In this document: one piece after another, positions 14,882 to 29,896 of the stretch | How positions within the stretch are numbered: position 1 is the stretch's first letter | Layout of the letters: each line of letters opens with the position of its first letter | Source: Oscillospiraceae bacterium | GTDB taxonomy: Bacteria > Bacillota > Clostridia > Oscillospirales > Ruminococcaceae | DNA length: 49,134 bases | Direction of reading: 5' to 3' | NCBI GenBank assembly: GCA_017436125.1 | Contig: JAFSDS010000046.1 | Span: 1 to 49,134, forward strand | Notes under the pieces: generated by a model | The model's input: only the letters and a program-made list of their open reading frames with translations | What the model was told of the DNA's origin: nothing | Databases searched by the model: none | Position numbers and translations under genes: made by a program

Positions 14882-14892
14882 GGGGGGATTTT

Positions 14893-16932
14893 ATGCCGGG
14901 AATTTTTAATTTTGAAAAGCCCGGGGCGATTTCAAAAAAGGTTTTTGAAATAACCTCCTTTGCGGGAATAGACCTTTCCTCAGCACCGACGGATATCAGC
15001 GAAAAAAGAAGCCCGGATGCGCTCAATATGATGCCGGACAGCAAGGGGAACCCCATTAAGCGAACCGGTTTTTCCGTGACCGGAAATTATGGCGGAAGGA
15101 TAAACGGATGCTTTTTTCTTGGAAAACACAGAGTTATCCATGCGGGAAAGAACCTTTTTGTTGACGGAAAGCTTTTTTGGAGCGGCATGGCGGATGAAAT
15201 TTCCTCTGCGCAGGTCATCGGGGAAAAGCTTTATATTTTTGATGGCCAGGAGGCCCTTTGTTTTGACGGGGCACAGGTTGTTCCCCTTTGTGATCTGGCG
15301 TATATACCGACGGTTCTTATTTCAAAAAACGCGGATTTTTATGAAAAGGAAACGGCTTTCAGCGGTGACGGGGAAAGCACGGAATTCATCCTTGATGCGA
15401 TGCCCTATGAGGTAAAATCCGTTTCTGTTAATGATACGGCGACGGAATGCATCTGTGTTGACGAAAAAATCATTTTTGGAACTGCGCCGGGAAAGGATGC
15501 AAAAATCGTTATCAGCGCGGTTTTTGAACAGGAACCGGGCGGAAATATTAAAGAGGAATTCAACCTTATATCGAGAAGATGGAAGGAAAGCTTTATCTGT
15601 GAAACCGGAACAGAAAGGGTTTTTACCCTTTCAAAAACCGATCTTTCCAAGGGAAGGGTAAAGGCGTTCATCCGTGACAAAAACGGGGACTGGCAGGAGA
15701 AAACAGAGGGTATTGATTTTTCCGTTGACAGAGAAAAAGGAAAAATCGTTTTTGAAAAACCTATAGATAAAACGCCTGTTGCCGGTGAGGATAACCTTAT
15801 TATCGAGGCGGAAAAATATTTTGACGGATATGAAAACAGGATAAACAGATGCAGAAAAAGCATTGCTTTTGATACCGGCGGCACTGCGAACAGGATTTTT
15901 GTCTGCGGAAATCCGGATGAGCCGAACAGGGATCACTGGTGCATGACCGGAGATCCGACCTACTGGCCGGATACTTATTATTCCGAACTTGGAACGGCGA
16001 ACACCAAAATTATCGGATACAGCATTGTTGACGGATATCTTGGGGCGCATATTGCGCCTGCTTTTGACGGAAGAAGCGTTGTTTTAAGGGAAGCGGCCCT
16101 TGATGAAAACGGGAATGCGGTTTTTCCGATAGCAAAGCATCTTCAGGGAGAGGAAGCATCGGCGCCGAATTCTTTTGTATATATGGAAAACGAACCGCTT
16201 TTTCTTACGAAAAGGGGAGTTTACGCCATAACGGCGGCGGATATTTCCGGAGAAAAATACACCCAGAACAGAAGCTATTTTATCAATAAAGTTCTTTGCG
16301 ATGAGGATATTGAAAATGCTTTCTGTGCAAAATGGAAGCAGTTTTATGTTATCTCCGCAGGAAGAAAACTCTATCTTCTTGATACGGGCCAAAAGAGCTT
16401 TGAAAGAGCGGAACCCCAAAGCGCTTTTCAGTATGAATGTTATCTTTGGGACGGATTTGACGCAAGGATACTTTGGGAAGAAAACGGTGCACTCTTTTTC
16501 GGGGATAACGGGGGAAAAGTATGCCGCTTTGAGGAGGATATTTATTCCGATAACGGAAAGGCGATAAACGCATACTGGACTATTCCGGATTTTTGCGGCG
16601 ACGCTTTTTGGCGCAACAAAACCATTCGCACCGTTGCCGTTCAGACGGCGGCATATCCTCTCAACAAGCTGAGGATAGAATGCAGAAGGAACGGAATCTG
16701 GGAAGTTCTTAAAGAATGGACGGACAGGCTTTCTTTTTTTGCATGGAATGCGGTAAGCTGGGCGGAATTTACCTGGAGCGGAAACAAAACCGCAAAGACC
16801 CTTGCCTTTAAAACCAAAATCAAAAAATTTGATAAAGTTGGGTTCCGGGTAGTTTGTGATGAAAATAATAAGGCCTTTGGGCTTTGCGGCTTTGCCGCAG
16901 AATTTACCGAGGGCGGAAGATATAAAAAATAA
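14893..16932 (+). CDS. Large beta-rich tail/head-completion protein, possible P22 gp10-like propeller
   Basis: 679 residues. The start (GIDLSSAPTDISEKRSPDALNMMPD) is the opening seen in phage proteins that begin with an extended arm followed by a beta-propeller. Repeated short units of the type LFVDGKLFWSG, LYIFDGQEALCFDG and LYLLDTGQ suggest propeller blades. A central insertion (about residues 160-310) looks like an Ig-type module. The gp10-like stopper of short-tailed phages plugs the portal vertex and carries the tail. Absence of tape-measure, sheath and tube genes in the element supports a short tail. Family assignment is inference from the domain pattern. GGGGGG precedes the ATG. Confidence 0.6.
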   Translation: MPGIFNFEKPGAISKKVFEITSFAGIDLSSAPTDISEKRSPDALNMMPDSKGNPIKRTGFSVTGNYGGRINGCFFLGKHRVIHAGKNLFVDGKLFWSGMADEISSAQVIGEKLYIFDGQEALCFDGAQVVPLCDLAYIPTVLISKNADFYEKETAFSGDGESTEFILDAMPYEVKSVSVNDTATECICVDEKIIFGTAPGKDAKIVISAVFEQEPGGNIKEEFNLISRRWKESFICETGTERVFTLSKTDLSKGRVKAFIRDKNGDWQEKTEGIDFSVDREKGKIVFEKPIDKTPVAGEDNLIIEAEKYFDGYENRINRCRKSIAFDTGGTANRIFVCGNPDEPNRDHWCMTGDPTYWPDTYYSELGTANTKIIGYSIVDGYLGAHIAPAFDGRSVVLREAALDENGNAVFPIAKHLQGEEASAPNSFVYMENEPLFLTKRGVYAITAADISGEKYTQNRSYFINKVLCDEDIENAFCAKWKQFYVISAGRKLYLLDTGQKSFERAEPQSAFQYECYLWDGFDARILWEENGALFFGDNGGKVCRFEEDIYSDNGKAINAYWTIPDFCGDAFWRNKTIRTVAVQTAAYPLNKLRIECRRNGIWEVLKEWTDRLSFFAWNAVSWAEFTWSGNKTAKTLAFKTKIKKFDKVGFRVVCDENNKAFGLCGFAAEFTEGGRYKK

Positions 16933-16949
16933 GAGGGGAAGGAGAATAT

Positions 16950-17729
16950 ATGGAACTTTTAAAAATTCTTGAAAAGGATCTTGAGGGTAAAGGCGTTTTG
17001 GGTCAGCCGGAAGTTCCGGGGCTTTCTGCTTTTGAAATGCAGAGAAAAGTTGAGGAAATAGTACGCGATGTTGCCATCGTTAAAATAAACGAGATCATCG
17101 CCTATCTTATGGAAGACGGGGCAACAAAAGAAGACCTTGAAAAACTTCTTATAAAAGCCGGAGCGGTGAGCTCCGTTTTCGGAAGGGCAGGCGATATTGT
17201 TCCGATGAAAGGAGATTATACCTGTGATATGGTTGGCGCCGCAAGGGAAAAACATTCCGCGGAGCATTTTACCGGAGGGGATGACCCTATTGCACCGGAA
17301 AAAATCGGCGCGGCGGAAAAGGAACATATTCACGGAAATATTGACAGCGGCGGCTGCATCGGAAGCACCAACGGAAAAATCATTATGACCGGCGTTGGCG
17401 GAAAACTTGTTGCAAAAGATAAAAGTGAAAGCGGATTTTGTGAAAAGGCAAAAGTTTTTTCCACCACCGGCGCTGTTTCTTTTACTGCCGAGGATAATGC
17501 GGAATATGACTATAGGGGTGTTACTTCGTTCAGGATGAACGGAGCGCCGGTTGAGTGTCACGGATTTGTGACATTCGGGAACATTACTTCCGTACCGGTA
17601 ATTACAGGATTCTATTATAGCGGTGATGATATTACCGAAGCGGTGAGCATGGAAACCTGGGAATTTTCCGTCTTTGAGCACGGCGGAAAGCCTTTTTCCA
17701 TATTTAAAAACTGGGGTGTTGTTTTATGA
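16950..17729 (+). CDS. Tail fibre-like protein
   Basis: 259 residues. Residues ~1-70 are helical. Residues ~74-100 have the motif SVFGRAGDIVPMKGDYTCDM, the widespread tail-fibre element (SVFGRtGaV...GDYta..VGA). A trimer-like repeat with GAAxxxH ends (GAAREKHSAEHF, GAAEKEHIHG) follows. The C-terminal ~90 residues look like a beta-sandwich and may bind a surface ligand. Such proteins form trimeric fibres for adsorption. It is translationally coupled to the next gene by ATGA overlap. It starts with the same codons (MELLK) and a similar ribosome site as the long fibre gene at 18229. Confidence 0.7.
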   Translation: MELLKILEKDLEGKGVLGQPEVPGLSAFEMQRKVEEIVRDVAIVKINEIIAYLMEDGATKEDLEKLLIKAGAVSSVFGRAGDIVPMKGDYTCDMVGAAREKHSAEHFTGGDDPIAPEKIGAAEKEHIHGNIDSGGCIGSTNGKIIMTGVGGKLVAKDKSESGFCEKAKVFSTTGAVSFTAEDNAEYDYRGVTSFRMNGAPVECHGFVTFGNITSVPVITGFYYSGDDITEAVSMETWEFSVFEHGGKPFSIFKNWGVVL

Positions 17730-18217
17730 GCATGAAAAACAGAAGAAGACTTTTGAAAACACTGTTTTCTGTTTTACCCCTTTTTGTTTTTGAGCACGGA
17801 AATGCCGGCCTTTCAAACGGAACAAAACATGATAAAGGTTCGAGCCATATTGACGGAACGGTTTTTGAAGAGGGCGTTATCAAGGTTGAAAAAGACTATC
17901 GCAGCATAGCCGAAGAATATGAGGCGGGATATATAGATATCGGCGGCATTGATTTTGGACCTTATAAAACTCTTTTTATAGAATGCAGGACCAATGTTCA
18001 GGATTATGACGAGAATAAACCGTTTTTTTACGTCGGATACGGAAAAAAGAACGGTGCTTATCATACTTCATATACGGAATATGAATATGCACCTTCTATG
18101 TTTGGAGTTGTTTCTTTTGATATTTCCGATGTTTTTGGAAAGGATTATTTCATTAAAGGCACTTCATATAACACCGGTTCCGCCCATCTTGAAATAAAAA
18201 ATATATGGCTTGAATAA
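17726..18217 (+). CDS. Small tail-associated protein of unknown function
   Basis: 163 residues. A basic N-terminal stretch ([20 protein letters not shown]) could be a membrane or signal-like segment but may simply be a docking helix. The rest (from ~40) is beta-rich, with [13 protein letters not shown] and [10 protein letters not shown], like a lectin-type jelly roll. It overlaps the preceding fibre gene by four bases and is 11 bp before the long fibre gene, which suggests an accessory fibre tip or chaperone. No family is recognised. Confidence 0.55.
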
Positions 18218-18228
18218 GGAGGGAAAGA

Positions 18229-21200
18229 ATGGAACTTTTAAAATTTATTGTCAGAAATCAAAAGCTTTTGGGCGGCGAGGCCACCGTTATTTCCGGAAGT
18301 ATCGACTATATTGAGGCTTTTTTTGATTTCAGGACCTCGGATTGGAACGGTCTTGATAAATGGGCACATTTTAAAAAAGACGAAACGATTTATGACATAA
18401 ACCTTGATGAAGACAGGATCACAAGGGAAATGCATCTTAATCTTGAGCCTGGTATCTGGGAAGTTAAACTTCACGGCGACGAAAATATTGAGGGCGAGGT
18501 TTCCATGAGGATCACTACCTCTGCGGTTTATATAACCGTTGAGGACTTTGGCGAGCTGCATGAAGGCGGCGTTCTTCCGGAGGTTGCGGCAAGCGCCGCG
18601 GAGCAGATTGCCGCAAAAGCGGAAAATGCAAACGAAAATGCAAAAGAGGCTCTTGCCAAAGCGGAGGCGATTTTTACTGCGGCGGCAAACGGAGAATTTG
18701 ACGGAGAAAAAGGCGAGCCTTTTACATACGAAGATTTTACCGAAGAACAGCTTGAATCTCTTCGGGGACCGCAGGGTATTCAGGGCGAAAAAGGCGAAAC
18801 CGGCCCGCACGGACCCATGGGAGCAGCATTTACATACGAGGATTTTACCGAAGAACAGCTTATGGCCCTTATTGGACCGGAAGGCCGGAAAGGCGAAGAC
18901 GGCGTTGGAATCCGCGATTTTTATTACGAACAGTCACTTTTGGACGACGGTACAAATAAACTTCATATCTATCTTACCAATGGTGAAGAAAGAACTTTTT
19001 ATATCAAAAACGGCAGCAAAGGAAGCAAAGGAGAACAGGGTCCGCAGGGTATCCAGGGCCTTCAGGGTGAACAGGGACCAAAAGGAAGTGCGGGATATTC
19101 GCCTCTTATACAGGTTGAAACCGTTGACGGAGTACATCAAGTTACTGTTGTTGATATTAACGGAACAAAAAGTTTTGAAATCAAAGACGGAGAGAACGGC
19201 AAAGACGGAATGACCGAAGCCCTTAAATTTACCGGTCTTGCAGAAGGAACCTATGACGGAACGGAAGAGAAAACCGTAAACATCAAAAATCCGGTTTACC
19301 CGATAAATATCGGGCATGGTTCGGACGGATACTATGCGGATAAAACTTTTGACGAAATTTATGAGGCATACGGCAAAGGATATGAAATTTTTTGTAATCT
19401 GCTTATTACAAGCGATAACGACACTTACCACTATTATCAAAGGGTGCCTTTTGAAGCCATGTGGCAGTATTCCGCAACGGAGAAGCCGATGTATCTTATT
19501 TTCAGTTCTTTCAGTCCGGAGGACCTTTCCGGCGAAAGACCGAGGGGAATTCTCATCCGCATCGGTGCTGATGAAAAAGTTTATGTTTCCAAAGGTATTG
19601 ACGGCGTTAAAAATCCCTATGCGCTGACCTTTACCGGAGCTGTCAGCGGAACATATAACGGAAGCGAAGCTGTTACTATCGAAATTCCGAAAGGAGGTTC
19701 AGAAAACGGAGCCGCCGATTGGGCAGTCAATGATCCGGAAGCGGAGGGATATGTAAAAAACAGGACCCATTGGATGGAAACGACCGTTCATCAGAATTTT
19801 GAGTTTGACGGGGTTCTTGACGGAAAAGAATATATCCACCTGAATGAAGGAACCAACCCGGAGGAGGTTGGACAGGAATATATTATAAGACTTTCGGAAT
19901 TTTTCCCTGCATCCGTTGATGAAATCATCGGTACAAAAATCACATACAGGGAACCCTGGGCCGGACAGCATGAATTTGTTGTTGCGGAAGGAGATATAGC
20001 AGGCAGGGAACTTGGTGAAGAAAAATGCTGGGTAATAAGCGACCCGGACGGAAACGGAGCCGAGATGTATATAGCTTCTGCGGATGATAAATTCAAAAAA
20101 TCCGGCAGCGACAAATATATACCGAAAGGCATAAGTGTGTATTACCTTGACAGCGGAACTTATATGGAGAAGATCGAATTTTCTCAGCCTATCAAGGTTG
20201 AAGAGATATATCACAAGATCGACAGAAAGTATCTGCCGGATGATATAGGAACAGGAGGTTCGGATAACGGAGAAAGTTCCGGCGGGGTTACTTCCTGGGA
20301 TGACCTTCCTGCACCGCTTCCGAACAGCCATCTTCCCGAGGGATATCCTTATGTTGAAGGAGAGAGCAAGGAAACTGTTATCTTTGAAGAAGCAACTGTA
20401 ACTTGCGGTGAAGCGGCTATAAGTGAAGTTCTTCCGCTTGTTTTAGGCGGTATTTATAAAGTCAAGTGGAACGGAACGGAATATACTTGCGTTGCGTATG
20501 AGTTTGATGCAACGGCAATGGGCGTGGGAGTTCTTACTGTTATCGGAAACGGTGTTAACTTTGGACTTCCCGACACAGGAGAACCGTTTGTTATTGCTCC
20601 GCTTGAAGTTGGCGGAGTAACTTTAGTTGCTCCGATTGACGATTCTGAAACCGCTGTTGTTAAAATTACAGAAAACAGCGAAGTTATCCATAAGCTCGAT
20701 AATAAATTTATTGATTCGGAATGGATGGCAACATCAAGCATTGTAAGAAGTACCTTTATCCCGGAAACCACATTGAACTATACCGACGGAGCCGCAGGAA
20801 CCAGTTTGGCAGTCGATAATGTTCCAAGCCAGATTTTGAAAAACGGCGCGGAAGTTTATGTCACCTTTGATGGAACGGAATATAAAGTAAATACTTTAAC
20901 TCTTTTTCTGGGAAGCGATGGCATCAGCTTTATAGGAAACTGGGAATTGTTTGGCACGATTCCGGAGGCAGTTCCTCCCAATGTTCCGTTTTGCATCATG
21001 ATAGACCTGACAAATGGGGTGGCGGAATCGCCGATCAGTATTTACCGTTCTGAGGAATATTACTCTTCTGCGGCCTTGACGATAAAAGTTGAATTTAAAG
21101 AAACAGCATACAACAAGATACCGGAATATTTTCTGCCGGATAAGGCTCTTAAAAAATATTATCAGTTTCCCGTTGACCTTGCGGATTGTTATATTGAAAA

Positions 21201-21519
21201 TTCTACAGCGTTTACTTCGGAAACCAAGGCGGCCATGAAAGAAGCAGCCGATGCGCTTGCAGAAGGACTTCTCGTCATAGGAAACTATGGCGGGATCCCG
21301 TGTATTTTTAAAAGTGTTGGATATTATCCGGGTGACGGAATGTACAGCATGACGTTTGCGCCTCTTTCGGAAGAAATAGACTTCAGCAACGCCACCACTC
21401 CCCGAAGATATACGGGCAAAAAAGAGCTTATCCTGGCTTCTTCAACAGAGGGCAGCACGAAACAGTTTAAAATCACCGTTGACGACAGCGGAACTTTGAC
21501 AGCGACAGAGATTACTTAA
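18229..21519 (+). CDS. Long mosaic tail fibre / receptor-binding protein with collagen-like repeats
   Basis: 1096 residues. The N-terminal ~100 residues are a beta domain seen at the start of Firmicute fibre proteins, followed by an Ala/Glu coiled coil ([18 protein letters not shown]). Two units of the phrase [11 protein letters not shown] each lead into Gly-X-Y collagen-like tracts ([16 protein letters not shown] and [15 protein letters not shown]). Then come two ~25-residue repeats ([14 protein letters not shown] / [14 protein letters not shown]) and three larger modules that each end in a linker of the form [20 protein letters not shown] or [11 protein letters not shown]. This modular build is typical of receptor-binding fibres that evolve by shuffling. 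GGAGGG precedes the ATG, and a terminator follows. Confidence 0.8.
18721..18861 (+). repeat. Internal direct repeat in the fibre gene
   Basis: A 33-bp unit at 18721-18753 recurs at 18829-18861 with one mismatch, both encoding [11 protein letters not shown] in frame. Each copy leads into a Gly-X-Y stretch. Confidence 0.85.
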
Positions 21520-21588: not shown

Positions 21589-21789
21589 ATGAAAGATATC
21601 ATTGAAAAGATTTTTTCTTTTTTTAAAAAAGAAGAGACCACAGCTAAAAGCGAGGAAAAAGAAGAGGCTGTTATTTTACGCAACGGTTTTGGAGTTACAA
21701 AGGATAAAGACGCAAACATTGCGGAACAATGGGTCAACATTATGAACTATAACGGCCAAAGCCAAAGGGAGGAAGATTATGAACAATAA
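21589..21789 (+). CDS. Small acidic phage protein upstream of the portal
   Basis: 66 residues. An amphipathic N-terminal helix (MKDIIEKIFSFFKKEE) is followed by an acidic stretch and VILRNGFGVTKDKDANIAEQW. There is no known motif. AAAGGAGG lies 6 nt before the ATG, and the 3' end overlaps the portal start by 11 bases, so it is coupled to portal translation. A minor head or assembly factor is possible. Confidence 0.6.
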   Translation: MKDIIEKIFSFFKKEETTAKSEEKEEAVILRNGFGVTKDKDANIAEQWVNIMNYNGQSQREEDYEQ

Positions 21790-23314
21790 AAAAATAACCC
21801 CGGAGGGCATCTGGGAGGAATATATTGAAGGCGAAAACTATCACCGAATGATAAACCTTCATGAAACGGTAAAGAAAAATGAAAAATTTTATAACGGAGA
21901 GCAATGGGAAGGGGTAAATGCTCCGGATCTTGAAAAACCCGTAATCAACGTTCTTAAAAGGGCGGTGGATTACCTTGGAAGCCAGATAATCAGCAGCGAT
22001 ATAGGCATCGGCCTTGAAAGTTACGGAGGGGAAGAGGAAGAAAGAGAATGCAAAATTCTTGAAAAACAGGTTAACAGGGTCATTGAAAAAACAAAGGCAA
22101 AGTCCAAAAACCGCGACATCATCAAGGACGCGGCCATCAGCGGAGACGGAATTTTTTATGCATGGTTCGATCCGGAAAAGGGAAAAAACGGCGAAGTTGA
22201 TCTTGAAATTGTCGATAACGAAAAGGTCATCTTTAAAAATCCTTTTGAAAAAGACGTTCAGAAACAAAAAAGCATAATCATTGTAAAAAGGATGATGCTT
22301 GATGAAGCAAGGGAGCTTGCGGAAAAATACGGACTTTCCGCCGAAGAAAGAGAACAAATCGTTCCGGATGATTCTGCTGACTATGCGGGCGAAAACAAAG
22401 ATATCGGAAAAAGCCTTGTTACCGTTCTTTTAAGATTTTGGAAAGAGGACGGAGTCATCTGGTTCTGCGAAAGCTGCAGGGATGTTTTTATCAGAAAACC
22501 GGTAAAGACAAAGGCAAAACTTTATCATATCGCATGGATGCAGTGGGACAGGGTCAAAGACGGATATCACGGCGCTGCGGCCATTACTCCTTACATACAG
22601 AACCAGATCTATGTAAACAAAATGTGGGCGCTGGCGATGGTGCACAGCAGCAAAATGGCCTGGCCCCAGCGTTTTTATGACGCAACAAAAATCCGCGGCG
22701 GACTTTCCAACAAGGTGGGACAGGCCATCGGCGTTGCGGGCGACCCGAAAAGCGCCGTTTATTTTGATGCGCCGGCGGGCAACATGAGCGCCCAGGTGCT
22801 TGAACTTGTTGAGCGCACCGTAAGATATACCAGAGAGAGCCTTGGGGTAACTGACGTTGCACTTGGCGATATCAAGCCGGAAAACACCTCCGCAATCGTT
22901 GCGGCGGCGGAACAGGCTTCTGCGCCTCTTGTTTTCCAGCGGCTTGCAAACCACCAGCTTTGGGAGGACCTTGTTAACATCATCATTGATATCATCCGGG
23001 AGATGTACGGAAAAAGAGAGATCATTGATGAGAGGAAAACCGAAAACGGAAAGATCATCCGCAAAAAGATGGAATACGATTTTTCAAAAATCGATTATGA
23101 CGGATTTGGCATAAGGGTGGACATCGGAACGGCAAGCTATTGGAGCCAGCTTATGCAGGTGCAGACCATGGATTCCTTCTTCAAAAACGGAATCATCGAC
23201 GACGCGGTCCTTTATCTTGAGCACCTTCCCGAAGGACTTGTTTCCGGAAAAGACGAAATTATTGAGGAAATCAAAAAGAAAAAGAGCGGCGTGAGCACCG
23301 AACAGAAACTTTGA
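21779..23314 (+). CDS. Portal protein
   Basis: 511 residues, in the range of P22-like portals. N-terminal RMINLHETVKKNEKFYNGEQW and VINVLKRAVDYLGSQI are typical portal-wing features. GVTDVALGDIKPENTSA followed by IVAAAEQASAPLVFQRLANHQLWEDL is the conserved stem/crown region of the P22 gp1-like family. The portal forms the dodecameric ring through which TerL packs DNA. Its position, ~9.5 kb after terL and beyond the fibre genes, is unusual. GGAGG lies 7 nt before the ATG. The stop codon overlaps a copy of TTTGAGCACGG. Confidence 0.85.
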   Translation: MNNKKITPEGIWEEYIEGENYHRMINLHETVKKNEKFYNGEQWEGVNAPDLEKPVINVLKRAVDYLGSQIISSDIGIGLESYGGEEEERECKILEKQVNRVIEKTKAKSKNRDIIKDAAISGDGIFYAWFDPEKGKNGEVDLEIVDNEKVIFKNPFEKDVQKQKSIIIVKRMMLDEARELAEKYGLSAEEREQIVPDDSADYAGENKDIGKSLVTVLLRFWKEDGVIWFCESCRDVFIRKPVKTKAKLYHIAWMQWDRVKDGYHGAAAITPYIQNQIYVNKMWALAMVHSSKMAWPQRFYDATKIRGGLSNKVGQAIGVAGDPKSAVYFDAPAGNMSAQVLELVERTVRYTRESLGVTDVALGDIKPENTSAIVAAAEQASAPLVFQRLANHQLWEDLVNIIIDIIREMYGKREIIDERKTENGKIIRKKMEYDFSKIDYDGFGIRVDIGTASYWSQLMQVQTMDSFFKNGIIDDAVLYLEHLPEGLVSGKDEIIEEIKKKKSGVSTEQKL

Positions 23315-23336
23315 GCACGGAAGGAGGTGAACGAGC

Positions 23337-23711
23337 ATGACTGTAAAGGAATGTTATGAAGCGGCGGTAAGTTTTCTTCCGGAAAAGCCGGAAGAAAATG
23401 TTGAGGTGCAGAAATTTATGGTAAGCTGGTGCAATATTCTTCTTGCGGAGCTTATGGAATATGAAAACGTTTACCGCGCGGTAAACGGCATTGAAGAACT
23501 TTTATCTCCGCTTACGGTATCCGGAAAAGAGGACGTTATTCCGTATAACGAAAGACTTGTTAAAAAGGCTTTTCCCTATGGAATGGCAAGATGGGTATTC
23601 AGAGAAAATGAGGATATTGCGGCGAGCCATGAATACTATAATCTTTATGTTTTTGCGGCAAGGGAGGCAACTCCCCTGCTTGAAAGCGAGGTGATGGATA
23701 TTTATGGTTAA
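23337..23711 (+). CDS. Probable head-tail connector/adaptor
   Basis: 124 residues, all helical in appearance (MTVKECYEAAVSFLPEKPEENVEVQKFMV...). Its size and place right after the portal match the small adaptor proteins (gp4-like or gp6-like) that form the ring under the portal. There is no catalytic motif. AAGGAGGTG lies 7 nt upstream. The 3' end overlaps the next gene by 8 bases. Confidence 0.55.
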   Translation: MTVKECYEAAVSFLPEKPEENVEVQKFMVSWCNILLAELMEYENVYRAVNGIEELLSPLTVSGKEDVIPYNERLVKKAFPYGMARWVFRENEDIAASHEYYNLYVFAAREATPLLESEVMDIYG

Positions 23712-24963
23712 CCCGATAGCAAAGAAAAGGTTTGAGGACCAGAGAAATACATACATCGCCGAGGACAGAAAACTCAGGGAACTTGGAGAAAAAAGAAAGA
23801 CCGAAGAAAAGGAAAGGGAAGAATTTGTAAAAGGACTTGCTGAAGAAATGCCCATGAAGATGGTAACGGAGCCGATGAGCTCCGTTACCGCACCGGGCGA
23901 AGGAAAGCTTTTTGAGGAGATAAAGGATTTTGCCGGAATCGGCGACAAAAAAGACGAAAAATGGGAACAGGAATTTATCTCGGGGTTTAAGGAAAACGAA
24001 GGCATAGAGGTAAAGGAAGAAAAGAAACCCAAAACCACAAATCAGAAAAACATAGTGATAAATCAGCGAAACGATACAATAATGGCTGCTTATGAGTCCG
24101 GAGAGAAATGGCTTATGAGCGAGGGAGAGGATGATTTTATCAAAGCGTTGATAAATAACTTTCGTTCGGCCATGGGAAAAGCCGTTGAAGATCTTGCGTA
24201 TGCGATAAACGATATTGCGCCATGGTATAAACCTGCGGGAAATGTTTTGGAAAAAAACACCGCCGGAAAGATAAACGATATGGCGGAAAAGCAATTTGGA
24301 AACGCAAAGGAAAAAACCGGAGATTTTGGAGATAGTATGATCGACCTTGCGGATATGGCTTCTGAAGAATTGGGGTACATGGTTTTTGGACCAAAGGCGG
24401 GAAGTTTTATTTCGGATCTTGGTCAGGGCTTTGCAAAATACCAAAATTTAAGGGAACAGGGCTATGGAAAAGACGAAGCGCTTTTTGAATCCTCAAAAGA
24501 CCTTGCACGCGCAATTGCAACGGAAAATGTCGGCAATAAGTTTTGGAGAAACGGCAAGGTTGATGAAAGGCTTTTTGGAAAAAACGGTATCGTTGACAAG
24601 GCAGTTGATATTGAATACAATAGAGCTAATGAAATAGGTAGTCTAAAAAATGAGTTTTATAAAGAACTGACGCCAAAACAGTGGAGTAAATATTATAAAA
24701 AAATAGCAGAAACAGGAAGGCTGAATAGTCCTGTTGGGGATACTTTTGTATATCAAACCGGCGGTAAAATAATCATTTCCGAAAGAGTTTATATGGGAAA
24801 CGGAGTACATGATTACCAGGTTCAGAAAATATACAAAATAAAAGGACCAAATTCAAGCGAAATTGCTAAAGATGCAGCAAAAATTATGGAAAGGACCGGT
24901 AACTATTATGACGGAGAAAGAATTCTCGAGTTGCGTGGATTTATTACTAGAGAAAATGGTTGA
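23704..24963 (+). CDS. Phage-encoded polymorphic toxin-like protein with swappable C-terminal domain
   Basis: 419 residues. The N-terminal ~245 residues are highly charged and helical, with the host-like codon use of the other structural genes, so this part is probably carried in the virion. Residues 246-308 (YQNLREQGYGKDEALFESSK to DIEYNRA) are a pre-toxin block whose DNA recurs twice downstream. Residues 309-419 differ sharply, with AT-rich codons and an unrecognised basic domain ending in ERILELRGFITRENG. A constant body plus a foreign C-terminal domain, with small immunity-like genes next door, is the pattern of polymorphic toxins. Phage MuF-toxin fusions are known, but I see no MuF motif. 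An alternative is an ejection protein with a variable tail. The gene overlaps the connector gene. Confidence 0.7.
   Translation: MVNPIAKKRFEDQRNTYIAEDRKLRELGEKRKTEEKEREEFVKGLAEEMPMKMVTEPMSSVTAPGEGKLFEEIKDFAGIGDKKDEKWEQEFISGFKENEGIEVKEEKKPKTTNQKNIVINQRNDTIMAAYESGEKWLMSEGEDDFIKALINNFRSAMGKAVEDLAYAINDIAPWYKPAGNVLEKNTAGKINDMAEKQFGNAKEKTGDFGDSMIDLADMASEELGYMVFGPKAGSFISDLGQGFAKYQNLREQGYGKDEALFESSKDLARAIATENVGNKFWRNGKVDERLFGKNGIVDKAVDIEYNRANEIGSLKNEFYKELTPKQWSKYYKKIAETGRLNSPVGDTFVYQTGGKIIISERVYMGNGVHDYQVQKIYKIKGPNSSEIAKDAAKIMERTGNYYDGERILELRGFITRENG
24438..24629 (+). repeat. Pre-toxin repeat, copy 1 (expressed)
   Basis: Encodes residues 246-308 of the full-length protein. It is nearly identical to copies 2 (25651) and 3 (27191). 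Copies 1 and 3 share variants (AACGGCAAGG; AGAGCTAA at the end), while copies 2 and 3 share AAAAATGGCATCG, so the copies look like recombination mosaics. Confidence 0.95.
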
Positions 24964-25135
24964 CAGACGATATTCACAGGACACAGTTGAAGGAATACTT
25001 ATTATGATTATGACAACAAAACCGGAATTTCGTGAGGAGGCTGTGCTCCACGTCTTGGATCTACTTGAAGAATACAACGATGAGAAAAAGTTTTGGCATG
25101 CGATGAGTCGGTATTATGTTACTGTGTGGATGTAA
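24908..25135 (+). CDS. Putative cognate immunity protein
   Basis: 75 residues (MTEKEFSSCVDLLLEKMVDRRYS...), helical, without signal peptide, so cytoplasmic. It overlaps the 3' end of the toxin-like gene by 56 bases, with a GAAAGGA ribosome site somewhat distant. An in-frame ATG at 24956, overlapping the toxin stop by 8 bases, is an alternative start. The overlap, small size and AT-rich codons shared with the toxin's C-terminal domain indicate an immunity gene that travels with it. No database check was possible. Confidence 0.6.
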   Translation: MTEKEFSSCVDLLLEKMVDRRYSQDTVEGILIMIMTTKPEFREEAVLHVLDLLEEYNDEKKFWHAMSRYYVTVWM

Positions 25136-25163
25136 AAGGTTGTATTTAGAGGAGGAGCCAATA

Positions 25164-25478
25164 ATGATTGGTTTAAGAACATGCGAAGGAAAAAAGTTTG
25201 AAAAATTTTTTGAATTAGTGCAGCAGGAAGCAAAGAAAAAAGGCGGTGTGTTTTTTGCGGACTGCGGAGAAGGAAATGAATTTTCAAATGACCATATGGA
25301 AAGAGAAAATTTATCCGGTTGGCTTATTCCTATTGAAATTGCAGAAGAGTTCGAGAAAGAGTTTTTGGAAAAAACGGATCCTGAAGGTTGGGATAAGTTT
25401 TTGTGTTGGGCACTTTGGGAAAATGCAGACAATCCAAAAATAAGTTTCGATTGGTGTAAATATTCAAGCGGATTTTAA
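25164..25478 (+). CDS. Second immunity-like protein
   Basis: 104 residues, acidic (pattern VFFADCGEGNEF ... SGWLIPIEIAEEFEKEFLEK ... DKFLCWALWENADN), resembling small immunity proteins found beside Firmicute secreted toxins. GAGGAGG at 25150-25156 lies 7 nt before the ATG. The toxin in front already has an overlapping partner, so this gene may guard against a C-terminal domain that has since been lost or replaced. Confidence 0.55.
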   Translation: MIGLRTCEGKKFEKFFELVQQEAKKKGGVFFADCGEGNEFSNDHMERENLSGWLIPIEIAEEFEKEFLEKTDPEGWDKFLCWALWENADNPKISFDWCKYSSGF

Positions 25479-25548
25479 GTGGAATAAAATATAATTGGTT
25501 TTAGAACCTCTAAAATTAAAAGAATAAACGAGAAAATTTTCAAAAACA

Positions 25549-25650
25549 TATAACACAAAACGTGCGATATATTAAAAACGGCATTTCCACAAAGTGAACC
25601 TTGAAAAGTGAACAGGGCCGCGGAGAAATCCGCGGCCGGGCCTAAAGCAG
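25549..25650 (+). repeat. Cassette-boundary repeat unit 1, with operator-like dyad and GC-rich hairpin
   Basis: Shared with 27103-27190. It starts with the dyad CACAAAACGTG (25554-25564), runs through ATTAAAAACGGCATTT and AAAGTGAAC (here duplicated in part), and holds an 8-bp stem GGCCGCGG / CCGCGGCC (25616-25623 and 25630-25637). The stem is followed by GGGCCTAAAGCAG, and the unit ends exactly where the pre-toxin repeat starts. An in-frame TAA lies just before the repeat. Confidence 0.85.
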
Positions 25651-26125
25651 ATACCAAAATTTAAGGGAACAGGGCTATGGAAAAGACGAAGCGCTTTTTG
25701 AATCCTCAAAAGACCTTGCACGCGCAATTGCAACGGAAAATGTCGGCAATAAGCTTTGGAGAAACAGCACGATTGATGAAAGGCTTTTTGGAAAAAATGG
25801 CATCGTTGACAAGGCAGTTGATATTGAATACAATAAAAACGAAAAGTATTTGCAAAAAAGATTGGACTGTTTATTTAATGGAGAAAAAATATTTATTCCA
25901 AAGAACACACAATTTGAAAAAGTAAAAACTATTGCAGGAAACGGTTCGCAAAAAGCAATAAGGGATGTTAATAGATTAGTTTCGTTATATGGAGGAAACG
26001 AGAAAGATTGGAAAAAACAATCAGGAAAAATCAAAAGTGAAAAATATATATTTGATATTCATTGGTATGAATATGATTCAAATCAATATGAAGTAAAATT
26101 AAAATATAGGAGTGATTCAGAATGA
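25646..26125 (+). pseudogene. Silent orphan toxin cassette 1 (pre-toxin block plus alternative C-terminal domain, no start codon)
   Basis: The frame opens right after TAA at 25643-25645, with no ATG, GTG or TTG before or within the pre-toxin block, which matches residues 246 onward of the full-length protein. After the shared ...DIEYN the sequence changes to a new ~95-residue domain: a lead-in with IPKNTQFEKVKTIAGNG, then KAIRDVNRLVSLYGG and the ending FDIHWYEYDSNQYEVKLKYRS. A small basic domain with a C-terminal HWYE beta-strand fits small RNase-like (BECR-type) toxin ends, but this is inference. It is intact to its stop, which overlaps the next gene by ATGA. It cannot be translated as it stands but could replace the active C-terminus by recombination in the shared block. 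Confidence 0.75.
25651..25835 (+). repeat. Pre-toxin repeat, copy 2 (silent)
   Basis: About 185 bp, nearly identical to copy 1, in the same coding frame, and joined directly to the alternative C-terminal domain of orphan cassette 1. Confidence 0.95.
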
Positions 26126-26316
26126 AGCTAAGATATATTGGGGAATCTTTTGGAGTGGACAGCCTTACGAACGGAAAAATTTATGATGCAACAGAAGAAT
26201 ATGGTATGTATCGGGTAATTGATGACAGTGGGGAAGATTACTTGTATTCAATGGATAACCCAGCGCCTTTGGATGGAAGTTCGATTGGTGGGCGATGGGA
26301 AATTGTTGAAAAATGA
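26122..26316 (+). CDS. Immunity-like protein of orphan cassette 1
   Basis: 64 residues, MKLRYIGESFGVDSLTNGKIYDATE...YRVIDDSGEDYLYSMDNPAP, a small SH3-like beta protein pattern that is common in Firmicutes near toxins. The ATG overlaps the stop of the orphan toxin domain (ATGA), as in toxin-immunity pairs. GGAG at 26109-26112 gives a usable ribosome site, so it could be translated from any transcript through the region even though its toxin is silent. Confidence 0.6.
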   Translation: MKLRYIGESFGVDSLTNGKIYDATEEYGMYRVIDDSGEDYLYSMDNPAPLDGSSIGGRWEIVEK

Positions 26317-26589
26317 GTTTCGCAGAAAGTTTGTGTCAAGACGAAACCCAAAAATTATAACCAATCTTCCGGATCATTAAAAAAAGGTATAAGACACCTA
26401 GAGAAAAAGATAGAGCTGCATAAACTGAAAATAAAAAACCCTGAAAAATATGATGAAGGATGGAGCAATAAGATGGAATCAGAAAAAATAGGACTTATAA
26501 GACATTGGAAAAAAGAAATCCAAAATTATAATGAATCAATAAATAATAGAATCGAAGAACTGAAGAAAAGAGGCGAGAAAGATGAATGA
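26317..26589 (+). pseudogene. Truncated toxin C-terminal domain remnant
   Basis: Directly after the immunity stop the same frame continues without a start codon for about 90 codons (TKPKNYNQSSGSLKKGIRHLEKKIELH ... HWKKEIQNYNESINNRIEELKKRGEKDE, split here). The helical, basic pattern matches C-terminal ends of secreted Firmicute toxins as I remember them. The pre-toxin block is missing. The stop overlaps the next small gene by 8 bases, the same layout as the other pairs. It looks like the 3' half of an older cassette cut by a recombination event. Confidence 0.6.
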
Positions 26590-26800
26590 TTTGGCTTTTC
26601 AATATATTGTTGAAAGAATTATAAAAAATGCCGAAGAATCAATAAAAGATGCCAGAAATAATCCGAAAGATGAATATTTTATTGGACATAAGGTTGCTCA
26701 TTATGAAATACTTGATATAATCAAAACAGAACTTGAAGTTAGAGATGAGAATCTTGAGGAATATGGCCTTAATATAGACCTTGAAAAAAACTTTCTCTAA
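26582..26800 (+). CDS. Immunity-like protein paired with the truncated toxin remnant
   Basis: 72 residues (MNDLAFQYIVERIIKNAEESIKDARNN...DIIKTELEVRDENLEEYGLNIDLEK), helical and acidic at the end, cytoplasmic. GAGG lies just upstream of the ATG, which sits inside the 3' end of the toxin remnant. Codon use is AT-rich and unlike the structural genes. It probably survives as an orphan immunity gene. Confidence 0.55.
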   Translation: MNDLAFQYIVERIIKNAEESIKDARNNPKDEYFIGHKVAHYEILDIIKTELEVRDENLEEYGLNIDLEKNFL

Positions 26801-26801
26801 A

Positions 26802-26867
26802 TGTTCAAGCAGAAAAATGGCCCAACTTATTAATCCGTTATCATCAAAGAAAGGAAAAAGGCAATGA
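26802..26867 (+). pseudogene. Short remnant of another toxin C-terminus
   Basis: A frame ending AQLINPLSSKKGKRQ-stop overlaps the next ATG (ATGA), the same junction as in the other toxin-immunity pairs. Only about 20 codons remain before the previous gene. The evidence is the junction style and the basic C-terminus, so this is tentative. Confidence 0.3.
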
Positions 26868-27082
26868 TAATTTCGAAGGAACAAAGAAATATATTAAACG
26901 AATATATTAAGAATTTGGATGCGCTGGTTGAAAATGATTGTTTGGATCAAATTTTGGAAGAGATTTCTAAACTGCAATTAAAAGAAGGGTTTACGGATGA
27001 CCAAGAATGGTTAACACCTTTCGGTCTGAAACTCCAGGAGATATATGATGATATATACTTGAAAAATGAAACCGTAGAGTAA
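26864..27082 (+). CDS. Third orphan immunity-like protein
   Basis: 72 residues, MIISKEQRNILNEYIKNLDALVEND...WLTPFGLKLQEIYDDIYLKNE. The ending GLKLQ.IYDDIY resembles small immunity proteins of Firmicute toxin loci. AAAGGAAAAAGG precedes the ATG. It is acidic and helical without signal or membrane segment. Together with its neighbours it forms a run of immunity-like genes whose toxins are cut short. Confidence 0.55.
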   Translation: MIISKEQRNILNEYIKNLDALVENDCLDQILEEISKLQLKEGFTDDQEWLTPFGLKLQEIYDDIYLKNETVE

Positions 27083-27102
27083 AAATTATTTTATTATCAA
27101 AC

Positions 27103-27190
27103 AATAACACGAAATGTGCGATGCATTAAAAACGGCATTTTTCCAAAGTGAACAGGGCCGCGGAGAAATCCGCGGCCGGGCCTAAAGCAG
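27103..27190 (+). repeat. Cassette-boundary repeat unit 2
   Basis: Second copy of the unit at 25549: dyad CACGAAATGTG (27108-27118), ATTAAAAACGGCATTT, AAAGTGAAC, stem GGCCGCGG / CCGCGGCC (27156-27163 and 27170-27177), then GGGCCTAAAGCAG up to the pre-toxin repeat. It lacks the 14-bp partial duplication present in unit 1. Confidence 0.85.
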
Positions 27191-27677
27191 ATACCAAAAT
27201 TTAAGGGAACAGGGCTATGGAAAAGACGAAGCGCTTTTTGAATCCTCAAAAGACCTTGCATACGCAATTGCAGCGGAAAATGTCGGCAATAAGTTTTGGA
27301 GAAACGGCAAGGTTGATGAAAGGCTTTTTGGAAAAAATGGCATCGTTGACAAGGCAGTTGATATCGAATACAATAGAGCTAACGTATTCAGAGAGAAAGG
27401 AGAACGAAGATTTTATATAAAAAAAGAAAGAATAAGGGAAATTGTTGAAAATATGGTTGACCTTATTGATTTCGTATATGATGAAAAATGGGGAAATGTT
27501 GAATATATTTATTTTCCCGAGGAAAATAAAACAAAATGTTTACTGTATTTTGATGGCTATGAAATCTGGGTTGAAACAATGGATGAAATTATGAACACTC
27601 CTTTTATTGACGGTAAAAGCTTTAATGAGGTGGCAGACGACATTGTATTTTATTGGGGCCAGGAAGAACTTTTTTAA
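27186..27677 (+). pseudogene. Silent orphan cassette 2: pre-toxin block joined in frame to an immunity-like sequence
   Basis: The frame opens after TAA at 27183-27185 and has no start codon ahead of the repeat. The pre-toxin block is followed, after NRANVFREKGERRFYIKK, by an immunity-like domain (VDLIDFVYDEKWGNVEYIYF ... MDEIMNTPFIDGKSFNEVADD). Its C-terminus is similar to the next gene (MKTPFIEGKSLEEM). The toxin domain therefore seems deleted. An internal ATG at 27453 could still give a 74-residue immunity protein, but its ribosome site is weak. Confidence 0.6.
27191..27382 (+). repeat. Pre-toxin repeat, copy 3 (silent)
   Basis: About 190 bp. It matches copy 1 in the middle and at the 3' end, and copy 2 at other variant positions, indicating past recombination between copies. 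Confidence 0.95.
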
Positions 27678-27701
27678 GAATAAGGAGGATAACGACATAT
27701 T

Positions 27702-27947
27702 ATGACGTTGGAGGAACTGAGAGCACTCATTAAAAGATGCTTTACGACCATTTTTTTTGAATACAAAGGCATAGAGGGTTATGTAAGCCCTTTTCATGAC
27801 AGCGATATAGACAGCTTTGTATACGTTCTGTTTTATAATAACTCGGATGTAACTGTCTACGACATTGATGATGCTATGAAAACACCATTTATAGAGGGAA
27901 AATCGCTTGAAGAAATGATAGACCAGCTTGAGAATTTTGGGTGGTGA
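27702..27947 (+). CDS. Immunity-like protein closing the cassette array
   Basis: 81 residues (MTLEELRALIKRCFTTIFFEYKG...DIDDAMKTPFIEGKSLEEMIDQLENFGW), a paralogue of the C-terminal part of the preceding fused cassette through the shared phrase TPFI(D/E)GKS. AAGGAGG lies a rather long 13 nt before the ATG. It is small, acidic and cytoplasmic. A terminator follows at once, ending the array. Confidence 0.6.
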   Translation: MTLEELRALIKRCFTTIFFEYKGIEGYVSPFHDSDIDSFVYVLFYNNSDVTVYDIDDAMKTPFIEGKSLEEMIDQLENFGW

Positions 27948-27974: not shown

Positions 27975-27990
27975 GTTTGAAAACGTAAAA

Positions 27991-28001
27991 CACGAAATGT
28001 G
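27991..28001. promoter_or_regulatory. Operator-like dyad upstream of the lysis module
   Basis: CACGAAATGTG with arms AACAC-N5-GTGTT, the same core as operator C at 10190. A TATAAT at 28051-28056 lacks a clear -35, so whether this dyad controls a local promoter or blocks read-through is open. Confidence 0.5.
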
Positions 28002-28072
28002 TTATCAGCTCGAATCAAAAAAACCAACAGTAAGGCGAGGTGCAAAACCATATAATGAAAGGAGAGGATGAA

Positions 28073-28369
28073 ATGGATGTTGAAGAAATTGTAAGGGAGC
28101 ACCAGCGTATTTTTGACCTTGCAAAATCCAACAAAAAACGAATAGATACTCTTGAAGAAGAACAAAAGGAACTGCGCGAACTTACAAAGGCGGTCACAGA
28201 AATGGCCGTTGAACAGAAAAATATGCGCGGCGACCTTGCGGAAATGAAAAACGACGTTAAACAGATAAAAGAAAAACCGGCAAGAAGATGGGACGCTATG
28301 GCGGAAAAAGTGCTTAATCTTATAACCGCCGCGGTGGTTGCATGGATGCTGGGACAGATAGGACTTTAA
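28073..28369 (+). CDS. XhlA-like holin accessory protein
   Basis: 98 residues: a coiled coil (EHQRIFDLAKSNKKRIDTLEEEQKELRELTKAVTEMAVEQ, spread over residues ~9-48) and one C-terminal membrane segment (VLNLITAAVVAWMLGQIGL). This is the layout of the XhlA/haemolysin family, which sits in the cell membrane and helps the holin release the endolysin. The ATG at 28073 is chosen because AAAGGAG lies 8 nt upstream; upstream in-frame ATGs lie before or inside that site. The holin gene follows after 12 bp. Confidence 0.8.
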   Translation: MDVEEIVREHQRIFDLAKSNKKRIDTLEEEQKELRELTKAVTEMAVEQKNMRGDLAEMKNDVKQIKEKPARRWDAMAEKVLNLITAAVVAWMLGQIGL

Positions 28370-28381
28370 GGAGGAAAAATT

Positions 28382-28675
28382 ATGAACATTATTAAAAATA
28401 TCAACTGGAAAGTAAGAATGAGAAACCCGGTTTTCTGGATGACGGTTATTCCGGCGGCGGTAAGTTTTGTTTACTGCATGCTGGGTGCTTTCGAGATCGT
28501 TCCGGCCCTTGGCGAAAATGCGTTGCTGAATATCGTAAGCTCGGTAATTACCGCCCTTACGACTCTCGGTGTTCTTGTTGATCCGACCACCGCGGGAGTT
28601 GGGGATTCTGCCCTCGCTATGACCTATATTGCACCGCGAAAGGACGATATTGGGGAAGAGGTCGTTTTTGAATGA
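28382..28675 (+). CDS. Phage holin, phi LC3 family
   Basis: 97 residues. NWKVRMRNPVFWMTVIPAAV and LTTLGVLVDPTTAGVGDSALAMTY are the signature of phi LC3-type holins, with two membrane segments (about 19-38 and 48-66). It forms lesions in the membrane at the set lysis time. It is translationally coupled to the endolysin (ATGA). AAGGAGG lies 5-6 nt before the ATG. Confidence 0.92.
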   Translation: MNIIKNINWKVRMRNPVFWMTVIPAAVSFVYCMLGAFEIVPALGENALLNIVSSVITALTTLGVLVDPTTAGVGDSALAMTYIAPRKDDIGEEVVFE

Positions 28676-29385
28676 AAGCGATAATCGGCATAGACGCAGG
28701 CCACGGAGGGAGTTCCTCCGGAACCTATTCGGTGAACACCGTTTTTGACGGACTTTTTGAAAAGGATTTTGCCCTTGAACAGGCGCTTTTGATAGAACAA
28801 AAGCTTTTGAAAAACGGCTTTGGTGTTATTATGACAAGAAGAAGCGACGTGAACCCGGGAACAGTTTCTGAAAGGGCAAAGAAAATGAAGGAGGGAAAAG
28901 CGGATTTTGCGCTTTCCATACATTTTAACGGTTTTGGAAGCGAAAGCGCAAACGGCTGCGAGATTTATGTTCCCTATGCGGAAAGAGCGGCGGGGATAGA
29001 AACAGGTTTTCGCGGCCTTTTGGAAAAATATTTTCGCCGCAGGGAGCCTTTTGCAAGGAGCAACAGCTACAGCGACAGAAACGTGATTTTTGATAAAAAG
29101 CTGAACGCAAAAACAAAAAAATTCGATGCCTTTGACGATGAGAAAGATTATTTCGGATTCATCCGCGACTGCTGGGCAGGAGGAATTTCTGCCGATCTTG
29201 TTGAAATTTGTTTTTTGACGAACAAAAATGATTTTGAAACTTACAGAAAAAACAGAGAAGAAATCGCCGACGGAATTGCAAGAAGCATTGTTGAGGCATT
29301 TGGCGAAAAATATATATCCGAAAAAACGGAAGAAATTTCTGCCGCAAAACCGCGCATCAAAAGAAAATTTGACGTTATAAACTGA
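28672..29385 (+). CDS. Endolysin, N-acetylmuramoyl-L-alanine amidase (Amidase_3)
   Basis: 237 residues. The zinc amidase domain spans ~4-195 with ligands His11 (DAGHGG), Glu30 (GLFEKDF) and His84 (SIHFNG), and catalytic Glu178 (LVEICFLTN). It cleaves the amide bond between MurNAc and the stem peptide after passing the holin lesions. There is no signal peptide. A ~40-residue basic tail (AAKPRIKRKFDVIN) stands where other endolysins have a wall-binding domain, so binding may be weak or ionic. All active-site residues are present. Confidence 0.92.
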   Translation: MKAIIGIDAGHGGSSSGTYSVNTVFDGLFEKDFALEQALLIEQKLLKNGFGVIMTRRSDVNPGTVSERAKKMKEGKADFALSIHFNGFGSESANGCEIYVPYAERAAGIETGFRGLLEKYFRRREPFARSNSYSDRNVIFDKKLNAKTKKFDAFDDEKDYFGFIRDCWAGGISADLVEICFLTNKNDFETYRKNREEIADGIARSIVEAFGEKYISEKTEEISAAKPRIKRKFDVIN

Positions 29386-29428: not shown

Positions 29429-29650
29429 ATGGATAATTCTCAGAATAAAAAAACGCCCATTCCGCACCACGGAAGAAAGGTAAACGATTGGGAAACATTG
29501 CGCCCCTATGTTGAAGAAGGCGCGCCTCCTCTTGATAACAATATTTCTGAAAAAGGGGAAGAGAATATTAAAATCGACCCCAAATGGGGATTCGGATACA
29601 GCGCGGAACTTTCCGGCAACAACTCCACTTTTGATCCGAAAGAGGAATGA
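29429..29650 (+). CDS. Small hypothetical protein after the endolysin
   Basis: 73 residues, hydrophilic, Pro/Asn/Glu-rich (IPHHGRKVNDWETLRPYVEEG ... WGFGYSAELSGNN). It has no membrane segment or known motif and is likely partly disordered. GAGGTG precedes the ATG within a hairpin. A strong terminator starts two bases after the stop, so it closes the late operon. Confidence 0.5.
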   Translation: MDNSQNKKTPIPHHGRKVNDWETLRPYVEEGAPPLDNNISEKGEENIKIDPKWGFGYSAELSGNNSTFDPKEE

Positions 29651-29652
29651 CA

Positions 29653-29687
29653 AAAACCCCGTGCTCAAAAAACGAGCACGGGGTTTT
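29653..29687. terminator. Terminator with GTGCTC/GAGCAC stem, end of the late operon
   Basis: AAAACCCCGTGCTC / GAGCACGGGGTTTT around a 7-nt loop. The same stem core is used at 32544 and 46291. Confidence 0.9.
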
Positions 29688-29722
29688 ATTATGAGCACAG
29701 CTTTTAAAAGAAAGGAAAAAAG

Positions 29723-29896
29723 ATGAAAAACGATAAAGATTATTATATGAAAAAGATAGCTCCGCCCCAGAAAGAATACCGTTCCGAAGCGGCAAAAAGA
29801 GGAGAAAGGATTTCGCCCACATGGATGCCGGATGACATTGGAACGGAGAATTTTTATAAAAGCGATTCCACGGCCTATTTAAGAAAAATAAATTAA
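29723..29896 (+). CDS. Small hypothetical protein (57 residues)
   Basis: MKNDKDYYMKKIAPPQKEYR...RISPTWMPDDIGTENFYKSDS..., hydrophilic, 57 residues, with AAAGGAAAAA before the ATG. It lies between two strong terminators, so it has no obvious promoter except read-through. No family is recognised. It may be the last gene of the phage-like element, or a host leftover at its right edge. Confidence 0.45.
   Translation: MKNDKDYYMKKIAPPQKEYRSEAAKRGERISPTWMPDDIGTENFYKSDSTAYLRKIN

Follow-up and report, generated by a model that had tools for sequence, protein, structure and literature searches.

The stretch of DNA analyzed here (the window; 49,134 nucleotides) is one complete contig, JAFSDS010000046.1, of a 1.75-Mb draft genome of an Oscillospiraceae bacterium (GCA_017436125.1; completeness 86.8%), and at positions 9441-29896 it holds a set of podovirus-type phage genes, referred to below as the element, with a toxin region just before the lysis genes. 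We consider that this region is probably a polymorphic toxin locus with silent toxin tails and spare immunity genes, carried on an integrase-less element that most species of the genus have kept beside the same host gene. The swapping of tails and the purifying selection on the element were derived from a comparison of related genomes, and induction of the element, delivery of its toxin and harm to other cells are steps that we infer. The genus set consisted of 15 genomes (G000 to G014, G000 being the window's own genome); all genomes compared were draft assemblies, and those whose records were looked up were all Oscillospiraceae metagenome-assembled genomes, mostly from the ruminant gut. Tails and immunity types are designated by letters of our own naming (I, A, C, H, E, K, B, M, D, J and Y), and the coordinates of the features are collected in Table 1.

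Toxin-like tails and immunity-like genes in the window and across the genus

An earlier note on this DNA had described a full-length gene containing a block whose DNA recurs near 24438, 25651 and 27191, and the repeat comparison confirmed this: the gene, here called the carrier, is a 419-amino-acid (aa) open reading frame, and its block belongs to a 231-nt repeat family with copies at 24392, 25605 and 27145, which is far beyond chance. The two downstream copies are 97% identical to each other, the carrier copy is 97% identical to the first of them over 185 nt, and a 301-nt query across one repeat had exactly three matches in the window's own genome, all within the toxin locus. Also as the note had it, both downstream copies have an in-frame stop two codons 5' of the block (reading A-stop-S-R-YQNLREQG...), and no start codon lies between the stop and the block in either of them. 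Between these two copies the similarity of the leader extends further than it does towards the full-length gene, through a 50-nt stretch (86% identical) and a hairpin. The copy near 25.65 kb is the only one besides the full-length gene to run into a toxin-like tail, and this tail E is the different C-terminal domain that had been noticed; the copy near 27.19 kb leads to an immunity-like gene and no toxin tail. A promoter-like site (TTGACA, 17 nt, TACAAT; 11 of 12) ends each block copy just 5' of the tail (24593-24621, 25806-25834 and 27346-27374), from where it could drive the immunity genes; as it is part of the repeat, it counts as one observation, not three.

The order of the window's array is tail I, immunity I, immunity A, tail E, immunity E, tail D, immunity D, immunity B, immunity Y (27453-27677, 56% identical to a gene of G007) and M-like immunity, so that most of it is immunity-like genes and not toxins. 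Tail A is absent from the window, and its immunity A gene was likely left by an earlier swap. The small genes had been said to overlap their upstream neighbors by ATGA or a few bases, which is correct for the gene at 26122; the full-length toxin and the gene behind it, which starts at 24908, overlap by 56 nt. Searches of the window's small genes with Pfam and NCBIfam gave nothing above cut-off.

Judged from their sequences, the carriers of the genus combine a constant front part with a variable toxin-like tail, as in polymorphic toxin systems: the front parts are of several types, and the carriers are conserved as far as the block and variable after it. The active tails were I in G000, A in G001, G002, G011 and G014, C in G005, H in G006 and G012, E in G007, K in G008, B in G009 and M in G010. 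For tails A, B, C, E, H and M we also identified silent copies or pieces, in other genomes or beside the active one (pieces only for A and H). Tail C, the active tail of G005, is present in silent form in G002 and G008; tail E is borne by the type II carrier of G007 and is silent in the window; and tail A occurs on type I carriers (G002, G011 and G014) as well as on a type II carrier (G001). Comparison of the locus across relatives, which the earlier note had named as a check, therefore came out in its favor, with tails moving between active places, silent places and carriers. Its reading of a swap system like those of contact-dependent growth inhibition (CDI), Rhs and MafB stands as regards these moves, and has to be amended in that immunity-like genes make up most of the window's array. 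In the toxin regions of G009, G012 and G014 (L029, L035 and L030, respectively), we also observed frames of ~360-420 aa that resemble tail B fused to its own immunity gene.

Among the relatives, a silent tail in G006 matched Ntox50 (2e-20), tail H corresponds to DUF6883 (6e-13), and one relative gave a weak match to PBECR2 (0.001); one silent tail also had a weak Pfam match, below threshold, to a domain of a listed toxin. Matches to tail E came from 12 of 394 genomes in the order, the window's own included, from 18 viral contigs and from Streptococcus phage Javan173. The front part of ten chosen proteins ending in tail E was Phage_Mu_F in five, Phage_min_cap2 in four and neither in one. Of 19 phage or viral loci with tail E, several of which are near-identical, 18 had a homologue of immunity gene E behind the tail, the sole miss being a cut contig; such a homologue was also matched at 9 of 11 further genome loci. 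In one viral contig, immunity E is followed by an immunity-B-like gene (L185:6590-6775, 38%), so spare immunity genes may occur behind phage toxins too. As regards the MuF-linked toxins that the note had cited as background, tail E is common to them, but the window carrier had no Pfam match to the MuF domain (PF04233). In the profile searches that had been called for, residues 309-419 (tail I) had no Pfam or NCBIfam match, and the 26.0-kb domain is a tail of MuF and Phage_min_cap2 proteins.

The window carrier as a whole had no Pfam, NCBIfam or PHROG match; neither a MafB, FHA or Rhs front part nor a polyvalent or LPD domain was found in it with Pfam. Viral-contig scans with the carrier, an alignment of carriers and tail I yielded no relative, a scan of genome contigs with the carrier yielded nothing useful, and searches of solved structures with tail I, tail E and the carrier yielded nothing convincing. 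By sequence search, the window-type front part was present in 9 of the 15 genus genomes and in 3 of 297 sampled family genomes, all three of this genus and the window's own among them. Of the 14 genomes with the element, 13 have a carrier behind the small head gene (its front and tail are on two contigs in G014, and its tail is cut off in G004). G003 has no carrier, and its head gene and coiled-coil gene are ~20-30 bases apart. Since this genome keeps the portal, capsid, terminase and lysis genes, the carrier is likely to be cargo.

The strongest alternative, which we nevertheless regard as unlikely, is that the array is mainly a store of immunity against the toxins of relatives and that the silent toxin pieces are debris of past replacements. 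In its favor, the window has one active tail versus seven kinds of immunity-like gene (I, A, E, D, B, Y and M-like), the third block copy has lost its toxin, and acquired orphan immunity genes are reported for the type VI secretion system (PMC10470768, PMC12247911). However, the silent tails E, C, D and J had ratios of nonsynonymous to synonymous change (dN/dS) of 0.09-0.26 in the computable pairs, although several pairs were saturated or nearly so and one stretch of tail J contained a stop. The occurrence of tails in both silent and active places, and the 97% identity of the block between the carrier and a silent copy, likewise speak against a mere store.

The phage element, its site and its inheritance

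The capsid gene was identified in all 15 genus genomes, mostly at 84-88% identity, and the element was recognized in 14 of them; the exception, G013, has related genes in a different order. Only fragments of the element are available from G005, and G002 and G003 have the portal gene at another place in the element. In relatives, the repressor is at the left end, and the left neighbors differ between genomes. At the right end, the lysis genes are within about 2 kb of a host TRIC-like gene in 10 of 11 readable genomes (G000, G001, G002, G003, G006, G007, G010, G011, G012 and G014); this end was unreadable in G005 and G009, where the contig ends too soon, and in G004 and G013, which had no TRIC match. 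A sigma-factor-like gene pair, read from translations, lies between the lysis genes and the TRIC-like gene in G001, G002, G003 and G006. No integrase or replication gene was seen in the element, which for the integrase was judged partly by reading translations, and the 11 flank gaps held host-type open reading frames and no visible integrase. The host of the locus, which the earlier note took to be a Clostridia phage, is not a typical temperate phage, given these absences, the presence of the element in 14 of 15 genomes and its recurrent right-end neighbor. Searches of phage records returned 14 portal relatives at 25-27% identity, 13 of them in Bacillus phages such as Page and Pony, and 14 capsid relatives at up to 40%. 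Among viral contigs, a capsid alignment used as query gave 44 loci, of which two were at 55-59% and all others at ≤35%, and a scan with the single capsid protein gave nothing useful.

The element's structural genes are under purifying selection: median dN/dS was 0.10 for the capsid, 0.11 for terL, 0.12 for the portal and 0.14 for the repressor, and the structural genes are open in 13-14 genomes. Apparent stops in the repressor and in the scaffold gene of G003 and G004 were rejected because they came from a frame read upstream of the start. The median synonymous difference was 0.52-0.70 for element genes versus 0.50-0.58 for four host genes. Phage distances track host recG (Mantel r 0.79, p 0.0001, 13 genomes); G001, G007 and G011 group in both the phage and the recG trees, as do G002, G003, G004, G006, G009, G012 and G014, the latter with weak support for recG.

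These data bear on two further explanations. That the element is an ordinary defective prophage on its way out, with a toxin gene by chance, is improbable: no integrase or replication genes were seen, G013 is without this element, phage genes conflict with the host tree in one clade and the right flank of G008 is different, but a decaying prophage does not fit with open structural genes, a dN/dS near 0.1 across the divergence of the genus and the same right-end host gene in most genomes. About equally improbable is a temperate phage or satellite that still moves and uses a recombinase in trans to enter a single attachment site. The shallow disagreement between phage and host and an integrase-bearing relative in G010 would suit such a phage, whereas the lack of visible integrase and replication genes, the distances that track the host gene, and the lack of any carrier relative in viral contigs, whose closest capsid relatives are at 55-59%, would not.

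The relative in G010, which is present in addition to the element, is a prophage with a serine integrase (L197:20-8686, L159:6103-7575). Where the element has the carrier, this prophage has an open frame of 2888 aa with ART-PolyVal and LPD3 domains, and behind it come the same coiled-coil, holin and amidase genes; among the 15 genus genomes, LPD3 was found in this prophage only. Polyvalent proteins are predicted to be packaged in the virion and injected (PMC5512222). As sequence similarity is weak, the shared place is the main argument for a link between carrier and polyvalent proteins. Carriage of the carrier by the virion is plausible.

Some names of genes used here are our own: gp10 is our label, scaffold and gp4 were named from position, and TRIC from reading the translation. 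The small head gene had no family match in Pfam or PHROG. Reading of translations also indicated a serine-recombinase-like fragment at 31-582, near the contig edge and separated from the element by several host-type genes, and a BlaI/BlaR-like regulator pair left of the element (4118-7398), which is near the element in G010 too.

Table 1. Features of the element and its toxin region in the window
Feature	Position	Strand	Basis or relatives
Repressor, helix-turn-helix and S24 (LexA-like) peptidase	9441..10058	-	Pfam HTH_3 4.5e-15, Peptidase_S24 2.8e-28
Three near-copies of palindrome AACACAAAACGTGTT, repressor-terS gap	10099..10391 (10099, 10140, 10377)	.	1-2 mismatches
Small and large terminase	10452..12219	+	Pfam Terminase_2 8e-22, Terminase_6N 1.6e-13
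Scaffold-like gene and major capsid gene	12248..14245	+	Capsid phrog_422 1.6e-41; scaffold by position
Virion genes	14309..21519	+	phrog_3287 1.6e-28 and tail-fibre phrogs
gp10-like structural protein	14893-16932	+	
Collagen-like tail fibre	18229-21519	+	
P22-type portal and small head gene (gp4 by position)	21779..23711	+	Pfam P22_portal 1.5e-11, phrog_156 1.9e-21
Full-length carrier with toxin-like tail I (about 24628-24960)	23704..24963	+	419-aa open reading frame; relatives in genus
Hairpin within carrier gene, 7-bp stem	23866..23885	+	
Shared block, carrier copy	24438..24626	+	Repeat comparison; ~63 codons
Immunity-like gene for tail I	24908..25135	+	Position and overlap with carrier only
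Immunity-like gene type A	25164..25478	+	54-64% identity to relatives
Cassette header 1: operator-like palindrome, spacer, hairpin GGCCGCGGA(gaaa)TCCGCGGCC	25552..25637	+	
In-frame stop and block copy 2	25643..25840	+	Repeat and translation
Silent toxin-like tail E	25832..26125	+	60% to active tail of G007
Immunity gene E	26122..26316	+	Homologue directly downstream of tail E in phages
Toxin-immunity remnant D, blockless	26359..26800	+	60% and 75% to G002
Lone immunity-like gene type B, no toxin, no block	26864..27082	+	52% to gene after active toxin of G009
Cassette header 2	27106..27177	+	
In-frame stop and block copy 3, without toxin tail behind	27183..27380	+	Repeat and comparison with relatives
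Two further immunity-like genes, types Y and M-like	27453..27947	+	56% and 39% to relatives
Palindrome 5' of lysis module	27989..28003	.	
Coiled-coil-like gene, holin, N-acetylmuramoyl-L-alanine amidase	28064..29385	+	Phage_holin_1 1.3e-23, Amidase_3 6.5e-30
Two small genes, right end of element, adjoining host TRIC-like gene	29429..29896	+	Conserved in relatives

Palindromes and hairpins of the toxin region

A 15-nt palindrome, allowing ≤2 mismatches, was identified 71 times, of which 35 were in the repressor-terS gap, 21 in the toxin region, 12 ahead of the lysis module and 3 elsewhere. Its 13-nt core had six matches in the window versus 0.78 expected. Since the palindrome flanks TTGACA...TATA-type sequences in the repressor-terS gap, the copies are likely operators of the element's repressor. 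Most silent cassettes begin with such a predicted operator and a hairpin, and a predicted hairpin is also inside most carrier genes. None of the 12 hairpins in carrier starts had a palindrome within 70 nt upstream, as against 19 of 26 further hairpins of the toxin region; five of the seven palindrome-less ones among the latter are of another, terminator-like type (AAGGCGC...GCGCCTT and similar).

The hairpin is lineage-specific: in G001, G005, G006, G007, G009 and G012 the carrier and the silent cassettes have the same or nearly the same one, in G002 and G014 the match is less exact, and in G000 and G008 the two differ. A hairpin in the first 240 nt was present in 11 of 13 carriers versus 0.38 expected from synonymous shuffles, a contrast that is no clean probability, as the criterion was fixed after the hairpins were seen and the carriers are related; G008 (imperfect stem) and G010 had no qualifying hairpin. 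The hairpin of the window carrier is by itself hardly above chance, being reached by 15 of 400 shuffles. Several origins of the hairpins were considered and rejected: a genome-wide repeat, because the pattern GGCCGCGGANANATCCGCGGCC had 11 matches in 5 of 15 genomes, all on contigs of the toxin locus; an intrinsic terminator, because no T run lies behind on the plus strand; and codon choice, because of the synonymous shuffles above. An Rfam search over the element gave no match, and no cassette integrase was seen beside the array, in the element or in the 11 flank gaps, unlike in integron-type arrays.

Given the headers of operator and hairpin and the hairpins in carriers, a bolder view can be proposed, which we hold to be unlikely: a gene-transfer-agent-like particle may have been turned into a weapon that carries toxins and renews this cargo through cassettes bounded by hairpins. 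New toxin-immunity modules would be inserted at a hairpin near the 5' end of the carrier gene, and older ones would be displaced into an ordered array, each with a repressor operator and the same lineage-specific hairpin in front; the array would then document past toxins and keep immunity genes in stock.

Weighing of the evidence and relation to known systems

If the locus is a polymorphic toxin locus with silent tails, SOS-type induction through the LexA-like repressor would lead the element to make particles, into which the carrier would be loaded for delivery to related cells, and its tail would harm those without the matching immunity gene. Recombination in the block would move a silent tail into the carrier, and older immunity genes would remain as a protective stock. 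The comparison suggests phage-like particles turned into toxin carriers.

Several observations weigh against this reading. The carrier is without any virion domain, tail I of the window carrier had no relative in Pfam, NCBIfam, viral contigs, solved structures or the genus, and only 1 of 16 carrier sequences matched the polyvalent protein of the G010 prophage at E below 1e-3. An in-frame TTG at 25850 lies within silent tail E, making weak translation of this tail possible. In G008 (L049:5678-7659), all that the TRIC-like gene has beside it is a relative (46%) of the last small gene, followed by another host gene, without lysis genes; the right-end site is thus not universal, and the G008 element may be rearranged or lie at another site. 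The phage and recG trees disagree on the place of G000; within G004, G006, G009, G012 and G014, phage genes show far greater divergence than recG and a different branching order; and the Mantel p for gp4 was 0.06, which implies that horizontal replacement happened too. That the tails have no toxic effect and are structural variants of a protein that is ejected, as might be argued from a toxin role assigned by sequence and from the window carrier's tail without known relative, is very unlikely in view of the Ntox50 and MuF-tail matches and of the small downstream gene that is closely paired with tail E.

Prior work on MuF toxins, capsid-like delivery, MafB silent cassettes and the podovirus-like gene transfer agent of Faecalibacterium (PMC5576092, PMC3482391, PMC4287609 and PMC12946183, respectively) covers one part each of the present reading. 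As with the MuF polymorphic toxins of temperate phages (PMC5576092), the toxin is phage-encoded, has a variable tail and occurs in Firmicutes, delivery with phage DNA is proposed there, and tail E is common to both; unlike them, the carrier has no MuF domain and lies two genes after the portal, the element has no integrase and an array is present. The words orphan, silent and recombin are absent from the main text of that paper. The startless silent tails with an immunity gene, and the stretch common with the full-length gene, are like the orphan modules of MafB and CDI/Rhs (PMC4287609), but those belong to secretion systems, whereas here the setting is phage head and lysis genes, with an operator-like palindrome and hairpin before most cassettes.

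By its genes, the element resembles a podovirus-type gene transfer agent such as FpGTA of Faecalibacterium (PMC12946183), which is likewise genus-wide in related gut bacteria and without replication genes, and with which it has in common, by gene content, terS, terL, portal, scaffold, capsid, tail fibre, holin and lysin. FpGTA differs in having two operons and in that DNA-holding particles were shown; the word toxin has no occurrence in the main text on FpGTA. Polyvalent proteins (PMC5512222) are similar in holding the carrier's place in the sister prophage and in their predicted packaging, and dissimilar in that the window carrier is short and has no polyvalent domain. Loading of toxins in a capsid-like structure for delivery was proposed for MuF prophage remnants from gene neighborhoods (PMC3482391), and what is added here is a genus-wide element with a swap array. 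A combination of gene transfer agents and polymorphic toxins with swap arrays was not found in the open-licence papers searched.

If correct, our reading would join gene transfer agents with polymorphic toxin swap arrays. The idea of capsid-borne toxin delivery (PMC3482391) could then be tested on a natural set of species that either have the carrier or, like G003, lack it. Competition among kin would then be a reason for gut bacteria to keep phage particles that do not reproduce.

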